Source of the DNA: Rhodothermales bacterium
Lineage (GTDB): Bacteria > Bacteroidota > Rhodothermia > Rhodothermales > JANQRZ01
NCBI GenBank assembly: GCA_039944855.1
Contig: JBDUXZ010000002.1
Span: forward strand, 124,001-188,000
Length of the DNA: 64,000 bases
Reading direction: 5' to 3'
Position numbers and translations under genes: made by a program. Shown here one piece after another: positions 29,063 through 39,309 of the stretch. The notes beneath the pieces were generated by a model. The model had not been told where the DNA came from, searched no databases, and worked only from the letters and a program-made list of their open reading frames with translations. The stretch's first letter is position 1, and the number at the start of each line of letters is the position of its first letter.

Positions 29063-31594
29063 ATGAACATCTCTTACAACTGGCTCTCCGACTACGTCGA
29101 CCACGGCCTCGCGCCCGACGAACTCGCCGACGTGCTGACGATGGTCGGGCTCGAAGTCGAGTCCGTCGAGGGGCGCGGGCGCGACCTCTCGGGCGTCGTC
29201 GTCGGGCATGTCCTCGCGACGCGGCCCCACCCGAACGCTGACCGGCTGACGCTATGCGACGTGGACCTCGGGAGCGGCGGCCCGGTGCAGATCGTCTGCG
29301 GCGCGCCGAACGTCGCGGCAGCGCAGAAGGTCGCAGTGGCGACGGTCGGGACGACGCTGCTGCTGCCCTCGCGGAAGACGGGCGAGCTGGAGCCGGTGAC
29401 GCTCGGGCAGGTGAAGCTGCGCGGCGAGGAGTCGAACGGAATGATCTGCGCCGAGGACGAGCTCGGGCTCGGCACCGACCACGCAGGGATTATGGTACTG
29501 GACGAGGATGCCCCCGTCGGACAGCCGTTCGAGCGCTACCTCCGCGAGCGCGGCGTGCCGGTGCGCGACGTGACGATCGACGTCGCGATCACGCCGAACC
29601 GGCCGGACGCGACGAGCCACCTCGGCGTGGCGCGCGACGTGGCGGCCGTGACGGAGAAGCCGCTGATGAAGCCCGAGGTCGACGTGCCGGAGGGCGGCGG
29701 GAAAGCGGCGAAGGCGTTCGAGGTCGAGATCGAGGCCCCGGCCGTGTGCGGGCGCTACGTCGGGATGCTCGTGCGCGGCGTCACCGTCGGCGAGTCGCCG
29801 GCGTGGCTCAAGGCGCGGCTCGAAGCGGTGGGCCTCCGCCCGCGCAACAACGTCGTCGACGTCACGAACTACGTGATGCACGAGGTCGGGCAGCCGCTCC
29901 ACGCCTTCGACTTCCAGACCCTCGCCGGGGCGAAGATCGTCGTCCGGCAGACGGAGGGCGAGACAACGTTCACCACGCTCGACAGCGTGGAGCGCACGCT
30001 CCCGGCCGGAACCCTGATGATCTGCGACGCCGAGACGCCGGTGGCGATCGGCGGCGTGATGGGCGGCGAGAACTCCGAGGTCACCGACACGACGACCGAC
30101 GTGCTCATCGAGAGCGCATACTTCGACCCGACCTCGATCCGCAAGACGGCGAAGGCGCTCAACATCCAGACCGACGCCTCGTACCGCTTCGAGCGCGGCG
30201 TGGACCCGGCCGGGCAGGCGTGGGCGGCGGCGCGCGCGGCCCACCTCATCGTGCAGCTCGGCGGCGGCGAGATCGTGCCCGGGATTGTGGACGAGCGGCC
30301 CGTCACGCCGGAGACGCGCGAGATCACGCTCCGCCCGAAGCGGCTCGCTCACGTCCTCGGCGCCGAGATCCCGCTCGACGAGATCAAGCGGCTGCTCACC
30401 GCCATCGGCTTCGAAGTCGGCGACCCCGGCGTCGCCGGGTCGATGTTGGGCCGCGCCCTCCGCTCGGGCGTTGTCGAAGGCGAGGAGGCGAAGATCGGGA
30501 TGACGTGCGTCGTCCCGACGTTCCGGCCGGACGTGGAACGCGAGATCGACGTGATCGAGGAGGTCGCCCGACTGTGGGGCTTCGACCGGATCCCGACACC
30601 GCCGCGCACGGCGATCCCGTTCACCCCGCCCCGGCCCGACCGCGAGGCGCAGCTCCGACAGCGGGCCGAGGGGCAGCTCGTCGGGCTCGGCTTCCGCGAG
30701 CTGTACACGAACAGCCTCCTCCCCGTCCGCGTCGCCGAAGCGTTCGACGCGGCGGAGCTCGTCGGCGTCGAGATGGCGCCGGCCGTCACCGTCAACGCGA
30801 TCAGTCGGGAGATGGCGGCGCTCCGGCCGAGCCTGCTGCCGGGCTTGCTCGGCGCCCTCGCCTACAACCAGAACCGCGACGGCGGGCCGCTCCGCTTCTT
30901 CGAGTTCGGCCACGTCTACGGCCGCGCCGACGACCCGACGAACCCGGTCGAGGGCTACCACGAGCACCCGTCGATGATCCTCGGGATGAGCGGCCCGGCC
31001 CAACTCGCCGGACCGGACCGGGACGAGCGGGCGGTGGATTTCTACGACTTGAAAGGCGTCGTCGAACTCTTGCTCCGCGCGCTCGGGATCGACGGCGTCG
31101 AAGAAGTCGCTGCGCCGGAGGCGAACGAGCGGACGGCGTACCGCCTCTTCCTCGAACACGACGGGCAGCGGCTCGGCGTGCTCGCGCGCACGTCGGACGC
31201 GCTCGCCGAGCGGTCCGATCTCCAGGAGCCGGTCTACTTCGCCGAGTTGAACTGGGAGACGATCGCCGCCGCGGCCACGGCCCGGCCGCCGACGCGCTAC
31301 GTGCCGATCTCGCGGGCGCCCGCCGTGGACCGCGACCTCGCCGTGACGGTGGACGCCGATACTCCCGTCGGCCCGCTCCTCGCGACGATCCGCGCGGCCG
31401 GCGGCGGCCTCCTCCGCGACGTCCGCGTGTTCGACCTCTACGCCGGCGACCGCATCGAGGCCGGGAAGAAGAGCGTGGCGTTCGCGCTCCGCTTCGGCGC
31501 CGAGCAGACGCTGACGGACAAGGTCGTGGACAAACGCGTGCGCGCGATCGTGGACCGGCTCGGCCGCGAGCACCGCGCCGAACTTCGGCAGTAA
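29063..31594 (+). CDS. pheT: Phenylalanyl-tRNA synthetase beta subunit
   Basis: This 843-residue subunit begins MNISYNWLSDYVDHGLAPDE at the ATG at 29063. Domain order is the usual one: an OB-fold tRNA-binding domain (about 40-150, GHVLATRPHPNADRLTLCDV), the B3/B4 editing domain with ITPNRPDATSHLGVARDVAA, the B5 domain (about 410-500), the degenerate class II core (LRPSLLPGLLGALAYNQNRD) and a C-terminal FDX-ACB anticodon-binding domain (RAPAVDRDLAVTV to the end). Length is normal. It is co-transcribed with pheS. Confidence 0.97.
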   Translation: MNISYNWLSDYVDHGLAPDELADVLTMVGLEVESVEGRGRDLSGVVVGHVLATRPHPNADRLTLCDVDLGSGGPVQIVCGAPNVAAAQKVAVATVGTTLLLPSRKTGELEPVTLGQVKLRGEESNGMICAEDELGLGTDHAGIMVLDEDAPVGQPFERYLRERGVPVRDVTIDVAITPNRPDATSHLGVARDVAAVTEKPLMKPEVDVPEGGGKAAKAFEVEIEAPAVCGRYVGMLVRGVTVGESPAWLKARLEAVGLRPRNNVVDVTNYVMHEVGQPLHAFDFQTLAGAKIVVRQTEGETTFTTLDSVERTLPAGTLMICDAETPVAIGGVMGGENSEVTDTTTDVLIESAYFDPTSIRKTAKALNIQTDASYRFERGVDPAGQAWAAARAAHLIVQLGGGEIVPGIVDERPVTPETREITLRPKRLAHVLGAEIPLDEIKRLLTAIGFEVGDPGVAGSMLGRALRSGVVEGEEAKIGMTCVVPTFRPDVEREIDVIEEVARLWGFDRIPTPPRTAIPFTPPRPDREAQLRQRAEGQLVGLGFRELYTNSLLPVRVAEAFDAAELVGVEMAPAVTVNAISREMAALRPSLLPGLLGALAYNQNRDGGPLRFFEFGHVYGRADDPTNPVEGYHEHPSMILGMSGPAQLAGPDRDERAVDFYDLKGVVELLLRALGIDGVEEVAAPEANERTAYRLFLEHDGQRLGVLARTSDALAERSDLQEPVYFAELNWETIAAAATARPPTRYVPISRAPAVDRDLAVTVDADTPVGPLLATIRAAGGGLLRDVRVFDLYAGDRIEAGKKSVAFALRFGAEQTLTDKVVDKRVRAIVDRLGREHRAELRQ

Positions 31595-31662
31595 TCGCCC
31601 CCGCTGCGCCGCCGCCGTGTCGGCGTCACCTGTATATTTCGGCTCGCCCACTCCCTCTCGCC

Positions 31663-32025
31663 ATGAGCACTCCTCCCTCCTCCGACCCGGCTGCCACCGC
31701 CTCGTCCGACGCCGGGCTTCCCGCGTTGGAGCGGCTGCGCGGGCGGATCGAAGCGGCGGCGGCGGAGATCGAGCGACTGCGCTCGGCGAATGCTGCGCTC
31801 TCCGATCGCGTGCAGGAGCTCGCCGCGGCCGACGTCGCGCGCACGGACGGCGACGCCCTCCCCACGCTCACGCTCGAAGGCGACCCGGCCGAGCTCCGCA
31901 AGAAGGTCGAGAGCTTCATCGAAGCCATTGACCGGATGCTGGCCGAGCCCGCCACCCGCGACACGCCCGCCGAGACCGAGGCCGCCGAAGCCAACGGCGA
32001 GCCGTCGCCGGAATCCGCCGGCTGA
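31663..32025 (+). CDS. Small coiled-coil protein upstream of zapA
   Basis: This 120-residue protein has a disordered Ser/Ala/Pro N-terminus, then a coiled coil (LERLRGRIEAAAAEIERLRSA, AALSDRVQELAA at about 28-60), a second helix (AELRKKVESFIEAIDRMLAE) and an acidic tail. Immediately downstream is zapA, 25 bp away. Small coiled-coil proteins paired with ZapA can act as ZapB-like cell division partners, but this is inference from position and shape. TATATTTC at 31632-31639 may be part of its promoter. Confidence 0.75.
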   Translation: MSTPPSSDPAATASSDAGLPALERLRGRIEAAAAEIERLRSANAALSDRVQELAAADVARTDGDALPTLTLEGDPAELRKKVESFIEAIDRMLAEPATRDTPAETEAAEANGEPSPESAG

Positions 32026-32050
32026 TCTTTCCCCACCTTTCGATCCCTTT

Positions 32051-32347
32051 ATGTCTTTGAAGTCGCTTCGCGTCGAGATCCTCGACCACGAGTACCCGCT
32101 GCGCGTAACGGAGCAGGACGAGGCGTTCACGAAGCGGCTCGCCGCGTACGTCGACGGACGGATGCGCCAGGTTCAGGGCGAGATCAGCGGCGTATCGGAC
32201 CTGACGTACGCCGTGCTCGGGGCACTCGCGATCGCCGAAGAGCTGCACCTCGTCCGCGACGAGCTGCAGCAGCTCCGCGCCTCCATCGGCACCGATGCCG
32301 ACGCCCTCGCCGACCGGCTCGACGCTGTGCTCGACGCCGACGTGTGA
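32051..32347 (+). CDS. zapA: Cell division protein ZapA
   Basis: This 98-residue protein matches ZapA, which cross-links FtsZ filaments at the division ring. The N-terminal beta-hairpin head is VEILDHEYPLRVTEQDEAFTK, followed by AAYVDGRMRQVQ and the long C-terminal helix (YAVLGALAIAEELHLVRDEL). It is slightly shorter than the E. coli protein. It follows the coiled-coil gene and precedes the structured RNA locus and rny. Confidence 0.88.
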   Translation: MSLKSLRVEILDHEYPLRVTEQDEAFTKRLAAYVDGRMRQVQGEISGVSDLTYAVLGALAIAEELHLVRDELQQLRASIGTDADALADRLDAVLDADV

Positions 32348-32424
32348 CGAGCGCCGGTCCTCACCCTCCTTCAACGAATCCCAAAGGAGTCGCCGGAACT
32401 CCCGGCCGTCTCTTCTCTATATAA

Positions 32425-32767
32425 GGCCGTGCTCGCCGATGGCCGCTGACGGGGCTCCTTGATCCCGGCTCCGGCGAGCCCCCATCACCGGTCTGCAGCC
32501 CTGTTATAAGAGCCTGACACCTAGAAAAATGGGAGCCACCCTTCGGGTCTGACCTCCAGGCCACCCCCCGATTCGTCGGGGCGCCCGCGTTCGCGCGAGC
32601 ACCGTGGAAGGAAAGAGGGCCCGAGCGGCACCCACTGTGTACTGAAGAGGCTTCTTCATACACCGCGCTGTAGGCTGGTGTCCTTTTCGCCGCGCCGTCC
32701 CGATTCGGGGCCTGCCGGCACTGCACCACGCGCCCCGGAAGCGAGACCGCTCGTCCGGGGCGTTTTT
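32425..32767 (+). ncRNA. Structured noncoding RNA locus, 6S RNA candidate
   Basis: The 438-bp zapA-rny gap has no credible protein but many stems. TATATAAG (32418-32425) may be a promoter element. GTGCTCGC (32429-32436) pairs with GCGAGCAC (32595-32602), closing 174 nt, about the length of 6S RNA. Inside are GATGG/CCATC plus GGGGCTC/GAGCCCC (32438-32486) and small TTCG-loop hairpins (ACCCTTCGGGT, CCCCGATTCGTCGGGG, GCGTTCGCGC). A further hairpin (GTGTA/TACAC) and the terminator at 32731-32767 follow. Position next to zapA fits ssrS. The internal hairpins are less rod-like than classic 6S, and RNase P or tmRNA signatures are absent, so the identity is open. Confidence 0.45.
32731..32767 (+). 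terminator. Intrinsic terminator just upstream of rny
   Basis: The stem CGCCCCGG/CCGGGGCG (32731-32738 and 32755-32762) with an inner CGAG/CTCG pairing is followed by TTTTT (32763-32767). It ends 18 bp before the rny ATG. It most likely ends the upstream RNA gene, but the placement would also allow attenuation of rny. Confidence 0.8.
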
Positions 32768-32785
32768 ATAAGGCCTCCTCACGCT

Positions 32786-34480
32786 ATGGACTCTGCCGTC
32801 CTCCTCTCCCTCGCTGCGGCCCTCGTCGCGCTCGGCCTCGGCTTCGTGCTCGGCCGGCTGACGTGGGTCGGGCGCGCCGGGCGACGGCTCGATGAGGCGG
32901 CGCGTGAGGCCGAGGCCCTCATCGAGCAGGCGCAGCAAGAGGCCGAGACGTTCCGCCAGCAGCACGTCGTCACGGCGCGGGATGCGCTCGAAGCCGAGCG
33001 GCACCGGCTGGCGACCGAGGCGCAGGAGCAGAAGTCCAAGTTCCGCCGTATCCGCCACAAGCTCGACGCCCGGCAGGAGAAGCTCGCCCGCCGCCTCAAA
33101 CGGATCGGCCAGCGCGAGGACGCCGTCCAGAAGGCGCTCGACGCCGTGGACGCGCTCCGCGCCGAGGCCGACCACCGCAACACCGAGGCCGAAGAGCTGC
33201 GGGCGAGCGTGCAGAAGCTCGCCAAAGCCGTCGGCAGCCGGCAGCAGGAAGTCGCCGCCCGCGAGCGCGACGCCGAGGCGCTGCGCGAGTCGCTCGCCGC
33301 CAAGCACGTCCGCCTCGACCGCCTCGTCGGCGAGCACATCCGCAAGCTCGAAGCCGTGACGGGCATCTCGAAGCAGGAAGCGCTCGAGCGGCTCATCGAG
33401 GAGCTGGAAAACGAGGCCAAGCTCGAAGCCGCCGCCGCCATCAAAGAGATCCGCGACGAGGCGAAGATGACGGCCAACCGCGAGGCGCGGAAGGTCGTCC
33501 TCACGGCGATCCAGCGCACGGCCTCCACCCACACCATCGAGCACACCGTCTCCGTCGTCCAGCTCACGAGCGACGACATGAAGGGGCGGATCATCGGGCG
33601 CGAGGGCCGCAACATCCGCGCGTTCGAGGCCGCCACTGGCATTGAAGTCGTCGTGGACGACACGCCCGAGGCCGTGCTCCTCTCCGGGTTCGACCCCGTG
33701 CGCCGCGAGATCGCGAAGGTGGCGATGGAGCGGCTCGTGCAGGACGGCCGCATCCACCCCGCCCGCATCGAGGAGATCGTCGAGAAGACGCGGGCGGAAA
33801 TCGAGGAGGACGTGATCGAGGCGGGCGAGCAGGCCGTGATCGAGCTCGGCCTCCACGGACTGCACCCCGAGCTGGTTCGGCTCGTCGGCCGGATGAAGTT
33901 CCGCTTCTCCTACGGGCAGAACCTCCTCGCGCACTCGATGGAGGTCGCCCAGCTCGCCTCGCTGATGGCGGCCGAACTCGACCTCGACCCGCGCAAAGCC
34001 CGCCGCGCCGGGCTGCTACACGACATCGGGAAGGTCGTGGAGGGCGAGTTGGAGAGCCCGCATGCGATCGTCGGGATGGAGTGGGCGCAGCGTTACAAAG
34101 AGCACCCCGAGGTCTGCAACGCCGTCGGCGCGCACCACGACGAGATCGAGATGACGTCGGCGCTCTCCCCCATCGTGCAGGCCGCCGACTCGATCAGCGG
34201 CGCGCGGCCCGGCGCGCGGCGCGAGGGGCTGGAGAACTACGTCCAGCGGCTGAAGGCGCTCGAAGAGGTCGCCCGCGGGTTCGACGGCGTGCAGCGGGTC
34301 TACGCGATCCAGGCCGGCCGCGAAGTCCGCGTGATCGTCAACCACGACCTCGTCTCCGACGCCCGCGCCGACCAGATGGCGCGGGAGATCTCGAAGAAGA
34401 TCGAGCACGACCTCCAGTACCCCGGCCAGGTCAAGATCACCGTGATCCGCGAAGTCCGCGCCGTCGCTTACGCGAAGTAG
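32786..34480 (+). CDS. rny: Ribonuclease Y
   Basis: This 564-residue membrane-anchored endoribonuclease starts mRNA decay. One N-terminal membrane helix (VLLSLAAALVALGLGFVLG) is followed by a long coiled coil (about 30-195). A KH domain follows, with GRIIGREGRNIRAFEAATG. The metal-dependent HD domain has HSMEVAQLASLMAAE and LLHDIGKVVEGE. The C-terminus ends ITVIREVRAVAYAK as in the family. The order zapA - RNA - rny is shared with related phyla. The ribosome binding site is weak and a terminator hairpin lies directly upstream. Confidence 0.96.
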   Translation: MDSAVLLSLAAALVALGLGFVLGRLTWVGRAGRRLDEAAREAEALIEQAQQEAETFRQQHVVTARDALEAERHRLATEAQEQKSKFRRIRHKLDARQEKLARRLKRIGQREDAVQKALDAVDALRAEADHRNTEAEELRASVQKLAKAVGSRQQEVAARERDAEALRESLAAKHVRLDRLVGEHIRKLEAVTGISKQEALERLIEELENEAKLEAAAAIKEIRDEAKMTANREARKVVLTAIQRTASTHTIEHTVSVVQLTSDDMKGRIIGREGRNIRAFEAATGIEVVVDDTPEAVLLSGFDPVRREIAKVAMERLVQDGRIHPARIEEIVEKTRAEIEEDVIEAGEQAVIELGLHGLHPELVRLVGRMKFRFSYGQNLLAHSMEVAQLASLMAAELDLDPRKARRAGLLHDIGKVVEGELESPHAIVGMEWAQRYKEHPEVCNAVGAHHDEIEMTSALSPIVQAADSISGARPGARREGLENYVQRLKALEEVARGFDGVQRVYAIQAGREVRVIVNHDLVSDARADQMAREISKKIEHDLQYPGQVKITVIREVRAVAYAK

Positions 34481-36822: not shown

Positions 36823-39309
36823 ATGATTGGAACGGTTGGAAGCCTCTTCATCCTCGTCGCTCTCGTGGCGACCGTCCTCGCCGGCGTCGCCTACTTCAAA
36901 GTCGCCCAGGGAACGGCCGACGAGGCGTGGTGGAAACGCATCGGGCGGCAGGCATGGTTCGTCTCGCTCGGCACGAGCGTCGTCGCGTTCGGGCTGTTGG
37001 TGTACCTCTTCGGGACGCACCAGTACCAGTACGCCTACGTCTACGCGAACTCGTCGAACGACCTCCCGACGTACTTCACGCTCTCGGCGACGTGGGCCGG
37101 GCAGGAGGGCTCGTTCCTGCTGTGGATCGTCTACACCGCCGTCCTCGGCGCGCTCCTCATCCGTTGGGGCTCGCGCCCGGCCGAGGGCCGCGACCTCGAA
37201 CTCCGTCGGACGTTCGAAGCGCCCGTCCTCGCCGTCTTCGCGCTCTGCCAGGGCTTCCTCCTCTCGATGGTCGCCGGCGTCGACTTCGGCGCGTTCGCGA
37301 TCGGCGTTTCCCCGTTCCAGACCCTCGCCGCGAAATTCCCCGAGGCGCCCGTGCTCCAGCAGGCTGGCTACGTCCCGCCCGACGGCAACGGCCTCAACGA
37401 CCTCCTCCAGAACTACTGGATGACGATCCACCCGCCGACGCTCTTCACGGGCTTCGCGGCGATGACCGTGCCGTTCGCCTTCGCCGTTGCCGCGCTGTGG
37501 AAGAAGCAGTACACGCAGTGGGTCCGGCCCGCGCTGCCGTGGACGCTCTACGCCGTGCTCGTGCTCGGCGTCGGGATCGTGATGGGCGGGTACTGGGCGT
37601 ACGAGACGCTCTCGTTCGGCGGCTACTGGGCGTGGGACCCCGTCGAGAACTCCAGCCTCGTGCCGTGGCTCTTCGGGATCGCAGCGATCCACTCGATGAT
37701 CGTGCAGAAGAAGAGTTCGGCTGGGCACAAGAGCGCGCTCATCCTCTGCATCGCCTCGTTCATGTTCGTCGTCTACTCGACGTTCCTCACGCGCAGCGGC
37801 ATCCTCGGCGACGTGTCAGTCCACTCCTTCGTCGACCTCGGGCTCTACAACCAGCTCCTCCTCTGGATCCTCTCGATGGGCGTCGTCGGCTTCGGGCTCT
37901 TCGCGTACCGCTACCGGGAGCTGCCGGTGCCGCGCACGCCGCCCGCTACGCTCAGCCGCGAGTCGATGATCTTCACGGGCGCGCTCACGCTCTGCCTGAT
38001 GGGCCTCGTCATCATCGTCGGCACGAGCGCGCCGATCCTCGGGCGCATCTTCCGCGACAACCCGGCGGGCGTGGCGATCTCGTTCTACAACACGTGGACG
38101 CTCCCGCTCGCCGTCATCGTCGCCTCGCTCGCGGGCCTCGGGCAGCTTTTCTGGTGGAAGAAGATGACGGTCGAGAACGTGAACCGCGCGCTCCTCAAGC
38201 CGCTCGCGCTGACGGTCGTCTCCGTCGCCGCCGTGCTCGTGCTGACGCCGTTCGTGCCGATTACAACGCCCGCGCCCACCGCCGTCGCGGCGGCCCCGGC
38301 GGCGGCCATCGAGGCCGGGATCGGCGGCGGCGTCGAGGGATTCTGGGCCGGCTACGGGCAGAGCTTGCTGCTCCTGCTTCTCATCTTCGCCGCGTTCTTC
38401 GCCTTCTACGGCAACGCCGCCGTGCTCTGGCGCATCGCGCGAGGCAACCTCAAGCTCGCCGGCGGCTCTATCACCCACGTAGGCTTCGCGCTGATGCTCC
38501 TCGGCATCGTCGCCTCGACCGTCTTCAACGACCCGATCTCGGACGGGCAGGGCGCCGACATCCGCGGCGACCGCGACAACTTCATCCTCCAGCAGGGTGA
38601 GGCGCGCAACATCGAAGGCTACACCGTCCGCTACGACGGCAAGCACTTCAACGACCGCGGCCGGACCGTCTACACGCTCGACTTCACGACGCCCAACGGC
38701 CGGCAGTTTCAAGCAGAGAACGTGGTCTACCACAGCACGAGCGAGCAGTGGATTCAGCACCCCCACGTCGAGAACTTCGCGGAGCAGGACATCTACGTCG
38801 CCCTCTTCCCGAGCGCGATGATGGACAGCGGCGGGAGCGAGAACGCCACACCCGGCCAGCTCCTCCTCCGCCGCGGCGACACCGCCCCGCTCAGCGACGG
38901 CGCCTACACCGTCGAGTTCGTCCGCTACGATCTCGAGCCGACCGTTGAAGGCATCCCGACCGACTCGCTGGACCTCGCCGTCGGCGCGGAGCTGAAGGTG
39001 ACGAACACGGCGACAGGCGAGGCGCGCACGATCTCCCCGGTCTACCTCATCCTCGCCGACCGCAGCCAGCAGTACGTCCAGAACTCGATCCCTGACTGGG
39101 GCTTGGGCTTCTCGTTCACCGGGATGCGCGTGGAAGACGACGCCGTCCAGCTCACGATCGAGGGGGCCGACACGGCGCCGACCGACTGGGTGGTGGTGCA
39201 GGCGTACCGTAAGCCGTTCATCAGCCTGCTCTGGCTCGGGACGATCGTCCTCGCCATCGGCTTCACGCTCTCGATTGTCCGCCGCGCACAGGAAGGACGA
39301 GGCCGCTAG
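36823..39309 (+). CDS. ccmF: CcmF-type heme lyase subunit (cytochrome c assembly)
   Basis: This 828-residue polytopic membrane protein of the heme-handling CcsA/CcmF superfamily ligates heme to apocytochrome c. Motifs include W91-AGQEGSFLLW and the WWD-type periplasmic segment GGYWAWDPVENSSLVPWLFG, with SFMFVVYSTFLTRSG after it. A large periplasmic domain (about 560-790) and a final helix (ISLLWLGTIVLAIGFTLSIV) complete the CcmF layout, somewhat longer than E. coli CcmF. No other ccm gene lies in the window. A 254-bp gap with an AT-rich segment (36655-36710) precedes it. Confidence 0.9.
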   Translation: MIGTVGSLFILVALVATVLAGVAYFKVAQGTADEAWWKRIGRQAWFVSLGTSVVAFGLLVYLFGTHQYQYAYVYANSSNDLPTYFTLSATWAGQEGSFLLWIVYTAVLGALLIRWGSRPAEGRDLELRRTFEAPVLAVFALCQGFLLSMVAGVDFGAFAIGVSPFQTLAAKFPEAPVLQQAGYVPPDGNGLNDLLQNYWMTIHPPTLFTGFAAMTVPFAFAVAALWKKQYTQWVRPALPWTLYAVLVLGVGIVMGGYWAYETLSFGGYWAWDPVENSSLVPWLFGIAAIHSMIVQKKSSAGHKSALILCIASFMFVVYSTFLTRSGILGDVSVHSFVDLGLYNQLLLWILSMGVVGFGLFAYRYRELPVPRTPPATLSRESMIFTGALTLCLMGLVIIVGTSAPILGRIFRDNPAGVAISFYNTWTLPLAVIVASLAGLGQLFWWKKMTVENVNRALLKPLALTVVSVAAVLVLTPFVPITTPAPTAVAAAPAAAIEAGIGGGVEGFWAGYGQSLLLLLLIFAAFFAFYGNAAVLWRIARGNLKLAGGSITHVGFALMLLGIVASTVFNDPISDGQGADIRGDRDNFILQQGEARNIEGYTVRYDGKHFNDRGRTVYTLDFTTPNGRQFQAENVVYHSTSEQWIQHPHVENFAEQDIYVALFPSAMMDSGGSENATPGQLLLRRGDTAPLSDGAYTVEFVRYDLEPTVEGIPTDSLDLAVGAELKVTNTATGEARTISPVYLILADRSQQYVQNSIPDWGLGFSFTGMRVEDDAVQLTIEGADTAPTDWVVVQAYRKPFISLLWLGTIVLAIGFTLSIVRRAQEGRGR

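Follow-up and report, generated by a model that had tools for sequence, protein, structure and literature searches.

6S RNA regulates transcription globally and is thought to hold RNA polymerase back as growth slows. In Escherichia coli the molecule ends in a single-hairpin tip, and the 6S RNA of Bacillus subtilis forms a bubble-collapse helix. The gene lies beside zapA in many bacteria, an arrangement that is nevertheless not universal.

For the beta- and gamma-proteobacteria, the adjacency of zapA and 6S is documented in the available part of one article (PMC7641849), and according to the available text of another the synthesis of the short product RNA (pRNA) rearranges 6S RNA and frees the polymerase (PMC9130861). 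The same text describes Ms1 of the Actinobacteria, which has a 6S-related structure and binds RNA polymerase, but differs in that the core enzyme is bound without the primary sigma factor, and belongs to another phylum with other gene neighbours (PMC9130861). Within the phylum Bacteroidota, 6S-Flavo is listed as RF01685 in the part available of PMC2864571, and the available portion of PMC7366714 reports a 6S RNA of Bacteroides with evidence for pRNAs, citing Wehner 2014 for an earlier prediction in Bacteroidetes. In the accessible part of PMC7002113, the text names Salinibacter, and 6S occurs solely among the references. No paper on a 6S RNA of Rhodothermales turned up in the literature searches, and the Wehner 2014 survey may contain a prior prediction.

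The window analysed here is the whole 64,000-nt stretch of DNA from a Rhodothermales bacterium. Between two of its genes lies an RNA that, to judge from its sequence and that of its relatives, is a 6S RNA too divergent for the standard model to recognise. Its homology, conserved structure and location, and the two competing pairings of its central bubble, were established by computation.

Results and discussion

Locus and coding capacity

The genes and RNA elements of the locus lie on the plus strand. The RNA is flanked by two reading frames that we take to be zapA (32051-32347) and rny (32786-34480), names that come from the first-pass annotation; same-strand homologues of the former are found upstream of the RNA in relatives, and matches to the latter downstream of it. 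The interval between them is 438 nt long, exactly filling the space between both genes, and folds at -187.6 kcal/mol versus -171.8 +/- 6.2 kcal/mol for shuffled sequences (z -2.5; none of 100 shuffles as low). For the core alone (32481-32691) the value of z is -2.8, with none of 200 shuffles as low.

The only plus-strand open reading frame of at least 60 amino acids that touches the core (32678-34480) is an upstream extension of the rny frame; two minus-strand frames (32361-32729 and 32504-33934) cross it. With a core of 195 nt between predicted ends, the RNA is of the size of a 6S RNA (~180-200 nt) and is taken to be non-coding. A scan of the window for tRNA and tmRNA found none. Further upstream, between pheT and zapA, a small reading frame at 31664-32026 is the C-terminal part of the open reading frame 29254-32025, and possibly encodes a coiled-coil division protein.

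Conservation and architecture of the RNA

With blastn, the two other genomes of the family match the interval at 78-80% identity, and blastn alone over the order reached 9 of 114 genomes, the own genome included. Two of the blastn places, L005 (a terminator-like stretch) and L009, were unlike the RNA and were discarded. An alignment of the window RNA with six cores (A1) gave 58 pairs predicted by RNAalifold, 27 of them with compensatory change. Six homologues, picked up by their similarity to the window, were combined with the window RNA into the covariance model R1. At E<=0.01 it matched 91 of the 114 Rhodothermales genomes, once each, and left 23 unmatched, one of which (G011) showed a weak R1 match when its RF00013 locus was searched. 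Four antisense matches of R1 (L024, L025, L026 and L030) are mirror matches of the hairpin, and were left out of all counts over 92 loci given below.

The alignment A2 has 96 rows, of which 95 are distinct, and includes the four mirror matches. Changes on both sides are seen at 53 of its 60 pairs, and 88.7% of the cells are paired versus 69.4% after shuffling (0 of 500 as high) and 34-51% when the structure is slid, values to be read with the fact that A2 was fitted to a covariance model, so that the alignment favours the structure. For a second covariance model, R2, the training set was 43 of the 92 loci, with near-duplicates and loci with long insertions left out. When 20 R2 loci from 20 genomes of the phylum were chosen for spread, all 20 were matched by R2; these loci lie outside its training set, and in them 87.5% of the cells are paired versus 43-46% when slid, with both-side changes at 52 of 60 pairs. 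Two conserved blocks were made into a DNA pattern, which picked out 12 stretches in named genomes, seven of which (labelled Rhodothermus, Rhodothermales, Rhodothermia or Bacteroidetes) score 117-159 bits with R2. The five others, differently labelled, had no R2 match and look like chance.

The core of the RNA occupies 32486-32680 (195 nt) and scores 208.3 bits with R1 and 170.1 bits with R2; among homologues, the R1 match is 179 to 303 nt long. It is closed by a stem of 14 bp (helices 1-2 of A2), in which 32486-32499 pairs with 32667-32680 around an enclosed 167 nt, with both-side changes at all 14 pairs and 93% of the cells paired. The central bubble has a 5' strand of 31 nt (32500-32530), which is predicted to be the pRNA template side on the model of 6S in general, and a 3' strand of 33 nt (32634-32666). 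The latter contains a small hairpin (32637-32647 with 32654-32663; helices 9-10), where both-side changes occur at 10 of 10 pairs and 66% and 85% of the cells are paired in the two helices.

The upper stem (32531-32633) is built from helices 3-6 (32531-32537/32627-32633, 32542-32550/32617-32625, 32554-32557/32610-32613 and 32561-32564/32604-32607). Within it, GGGAGCC/GGCACCC is strongly conserved, with G32531, G32532, C32632 and C32633 invariant across the 92 loci, and the position 32534/32630 unpaired in 64 of 95 rows. CCAC/GUGG stands near the top and is followed by two side-by-side hairpins, A at 32568-32579 (helix 7) and B at 32583-32600 (helix 8). Both-side changes are present at 5/5 pairs of hairpin A and 7/7 pairs of hairpin B, both in the order and in the 20 phylum loci outside R2 training; in the fold of the window RNA, hairpin B is short and imperfect.

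Overall, the molecule is one long hairpin that runs from the closing stem through an open bubble in the centre to the upper stem, as in 6S RNA. The first-pass annotation had placed a structured RNA between zapA and rny, with a closing stem around 174 nt and an interior unlike the textbook rod. The fold below shuffles, the single R1 match in 91 of 114 genomes and the covariation bear out the first point, a stem was indeed found with 167 nt inside it, and the departure from the rod lies in a tip forked into two covarying hairpins.

Two competing folds of the bubble

The 5' strand of the bubble can pair with the loop and the 3' arm of the small hairpin; within this strand, the element AAGAGCCU (32508-32515) can pair with AGGCUUCU (32648-32655). 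This alternative pairing, a collapse of the bubble, excludes the 3' hairpin, and in the window 7 of the 8 positions are pairable. Across loci, the mean duplex energy of a 5' strand with its own partner is -10.96 kcal/mol, versus -9.02 kcal/mol when partners are permuted (sd 0.15; none of 200 permutations as low, in a test that ignores relatedness among the loci) and -4.7 kcal/mol with the 5' strand shuffled.

A pairing between elements of the 5' and 3' bubble strands is also drawn in the structure line of RF00013. For the window RNA the alternative pairing, at -9.1 kcal/mol, falls short of the mean strength, and the minimum-energy prediction contains the small 3' hairpin. Among the rows listed, some members (L015 and L106) pair weakly (-3.8).

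Relationship to described 6S families

Searched directly, the window RNA gives no match to the 6S/SsrS model RF00013 at E<=10, even when a 231-base stretch is used, and neither RF00013 nor RF01685 has a match in the own genome. No Rfam family reached its cut-off on the window RNA, and weak matches to aspS, guanidine-III and snoRNA families were far below the cut-offs. With permissive settings, Rfam found no 6S in the first seven loci, and Rfam release 15 at gathering score gave no 6S-type match on the 20 phylum loci, with one tmRNA elsewhere in L155. A 6S-like shape reached by convergence in an unrelated new family of structured RNA would fit this lack of matches to the window RNA at the Rfam cut-offs and at E<=10.

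The relatives point the other way. Over the 114 genomes of the order, RF00013 matched 8 at E<=1, with a best E of 3.9e-8 at 46.3 bits and none above the cut-off of 46.4 bits. R1 covers all eight of these places (43 to 102 bits), and the RF00013 alignments examined for four of the eight span the whole 6S model. Over 389 genomes of the phylum, RF00013 matched 73 at E<=0.1, three of them in the order and none above the cut-off, and 72 of the 73 places are also R2 matches (36 by coordinates, and 36 of the 37 others by re-search). At all 36 re-searched places that R2 matched, both zapA and rny are near the RNA. The exception, G439 (RF00013 E 0.066), has no R2 match and neither zapA nor rny nearby. 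Given that the places reached by the 6S model fall on the family of this RNA in 8 of 8 and 72 of 73 cases, with alignments along the whole model in the four examined, and that the location is common to 6S-Flavo, we regard convergence as barely credible.

Kinship by covariance model is therefore seen through the relatives, where all RF00013 scores are below threshold, and the Rfam gathering score, which is a cut-off for annotation and not a property of an RNA, is not reached. The first-pass annotation had proposed a covariance search with the 6S family model as a check. On the window RNA this search came back empty and taken alone would look like a refutation; carried out through the relatives of the order and the phylum it gave a positive answer, and only they bridge the gap.

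Over 394 genomes of the phylum, at E<=0.1, R2 matched at least 200, with one match each and none in 194, the 200 being a lower bound because the strict filters missed genomes that did match when their RF00013 loci were searched. R2 had no match in 27 re-searched genomes. In genus g35 (G061-G068, G071 and G072) none of 10 genomes was matched on re-search with R2, a search that had no positive control, and the Rny protein of the window was unmatched in the four genomes tested out of four. This genus may have lost rny and 6S together, or the two may have diverged strongly.

In comparison with 6S/SsrS (RF00013), the RNA shares the closing stem, the asymmetric bubble in the centre and the upper stem, has a similar length (~195 nt) and one R1 match per genome, and likewise adjoins zapA. 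It differs in the tip, which is one hairpin in the model and two in the Rhodothermales RNA, and in that the window RNA is unmatched and its relatives are matched below threshold only. 6S-Flavo belongs to the same phylum and occupies the same slot, zapA-RNA-rny, in the eight loci retrieved out of eight. However, R2 reaches just one of these eight loci (E 3e-4), and the link is therefore mostly positional; moreover, the 6S-Flavo model has 108 positions, versus 213-215 for the models built here. RF01685 matched 49 of the 389 phylum genomes, 19 of them above the cut-off and all in families f28, f30 and f33, and the own genome of the window RNA is not among the 49. Another 6S RNA of this phylum, that of Bacteroides thetaiotaomicron, is reported with evidence for pRNAs in the available portion of PMC7366714.

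Gene neighbourhood

In the order, 77 of the 92 loci have zapA on the same strand no more than 321 nt upstream, and one more has it at 1969 nt. A match to rny is found within 215 nt downstream in 52 of the 92, ccmF within 300 nt downstream with no near rny match in 26 others, and 4 show no match to any of the four genes tested; these counts include some loci cut by contig ends. In the 20 phylum loci sampled, zapA is 2-93 nt upstream in every one and rny comes next in 17. The RNA thus has the zapA neighbourhood typical of 6S, and the suggestion of 6S, which the first-pass annotation drew from that neighbourhood, gained weight from these counts and from RF00013 hits that fall on the relatives.

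The position in front of rny also brings to mind a cis-acting leader or attenuator, in which the hairpins and the terminator would control read-through into that gene. A gap of 18 nt separates the end of the terminator from rny, and the 52 loci with a near rny match would agree with such a role. However, ccmF replaces rny in the 26 other loci, so that conservation tracks zapA more closely than it does rny. The RNA has a closing stem of its own, a poorly conserved spacer separates it from the terminator, and the family draws sub-threshold matches to RF00013, all of which make control of rny in cis very improbable.

In the window ccmF, a name given in relatives from comparison with the window frame, starts at 36823. 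Loci where zapA and 6S are followed directly by ccmF (e.g., L023, L042, L045, L048, L054 and L057) are rearranged relative to the window. Four loci of family f12 (L083, L087, L089 and L091), with R1 scores of 57-64 bits and lengths of 247-262 nt, have no zapA, rny, pheT or ccmF nearby, which suggests a relocated or second-type 6S.

Putative promoter, leader hairpin and terminator

Upstream of the core, a putative promoter at 32395-32423 consists of GGAAC (32395-32399), a spacer of 18 nt and TATATA (32418-32423); counted to ATATAA, the spacing is 19. GGAAC followed after 16-18 nt by one of several TATA-like boxes stands upstream of 31 of the 92 homologues (shuffled mean 0.06, maximum 1), GGAAC alone upstream of 52 (shuffled mean 14.3), and a housekeeping-like TTG...TA box upstream of 21 (shuffled mean 3.2), counts that overstate independence because the patterns were written after viewing the upstream sequences and many loci are close relatives. 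A sigma-70 scan of the window region returned no promoter.

Two stretches that resemble each other, GGAACC...ACAAAATGGTTATATAA, were seen in the own genome (G000:C8:27593-27620 and G000:C22:133393-133420) and may represent a promoter or the end of an element that occurs repeatedly. The pattern used for them has spacers of 16-18 before ATATAA, misses the window site and is uninformative on promoter frequency.

Between promoter and core, a 5' leader hairpin (GCTCGCCG/CGGCGAGC) is predicted at 32431-32479 by a weak fold (z -1.9; 6 of 200 shuffles as low). On the other side, a predicted intrinsic terminator at 32730-32767 is made of a hairpin (32730-32763) and a T run to 32767, 18 nt before the ATG of rny, and coincides with the strong terminator that had been noted at this distance. 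By a rule of our own that accepts weak cases, a terminator-like hairpin lies 3' of 61 of 91 homologues. A spacer of 49 nt (32681-32729) separates closing stem and terminator; with the terminator hairpin and T run included, the distance is 87 nt. The first-pass annotation had read ~130 nt here and considered a second RNA for this segment. In the three genomes of the family, identical columns amount to 33/93 (35%) after the RNA, versus 156/202 (77%) in the RNA and 58/113 (51%) upstream of it, and therefore nothing supports a second RNA; the extra hairpin is on the 5' side. From putative promoter to terminator, a transcript of ~338 nt is predicted, close to the ~340 nt that had been anticipated.

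Proposed mode of action

Taken together, it is very probable that 32486-32680 is the single 6S (SsrS) gene of the genome, with the promoter, the processing, and the holding and release of the polymerase as set out here. Transcription would start at its own promoter at ~32395-32423 and end at the terminator at 32730-32767, and the ~338-nt precursor would be trimmed to ~195 nt. The closed stem, open bubble and upper stem would mimic an open promoter, so that, by analogy with 6S RNA generally, the housekeeping holoenzyme would bind and be kept from promoters. When nucleotides return, the polymerase would copy a short pRNA from the 5' strand of the bubble, again as in other 6S RNAs. Upon refolding, AAGAGCCU would pair with AGGCUUCU to the exclusion of the small 3' hairpin, closing the bubble and freeing the enzyme.

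The shape of the RNA might also serve another target. Ms1, as described in the available text of PMC9130861, is a 6S-shaped RNA with a different target, and on this analogy the present RNA could bind the polymerase core instead of the holoenzyme and make no pRNA. Against such a role, the sub-threshold RF00013 matches coincide with the family of this RNA, and pRNAs are reported, in the part available of PMC7366714, for the 6S RNA of Bacteroides in the same phylum. Core binding in the manner of Ms1 is therefore improbable next to a 6S RNA that holds and releases the holoenzyme.

Conclusions

The RNA between zapA and rny is ordinary in kind, a 6S RNA, and divergent in form, with a forked tip, two competing folds of the bubble and, upstream of part of the homologues, a GGAAC-type promoter. 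These variant features merit a covariance model of their own. It is conceivable, and we propose it tentatively, as something rather short of an even bet, that much of the Bacteroidota shares one orthologous 6S RNA in the slot zapA-6S-(rny), largely missed by Rfam and set apart from the rod by two covarying features, the forked tip and a bistable bubble, where the 3' hairpin is in competition with a collapse helix of at most ~10 bp, and that in part of the Rhodothermales it is transcribed from a GGAAC-type, non-housekeeping-like promoter. If true, such a promoter would tie the levels of 6S RNA to an alternative sigma factor. The gain from this analysis is a covariation-supported view of a forked 6S tip and of a refolding helix, together with a working covariance model that opens the way to 6S annotation, comparison and knock-out in Rhodothermales and many other Bacteroidota.
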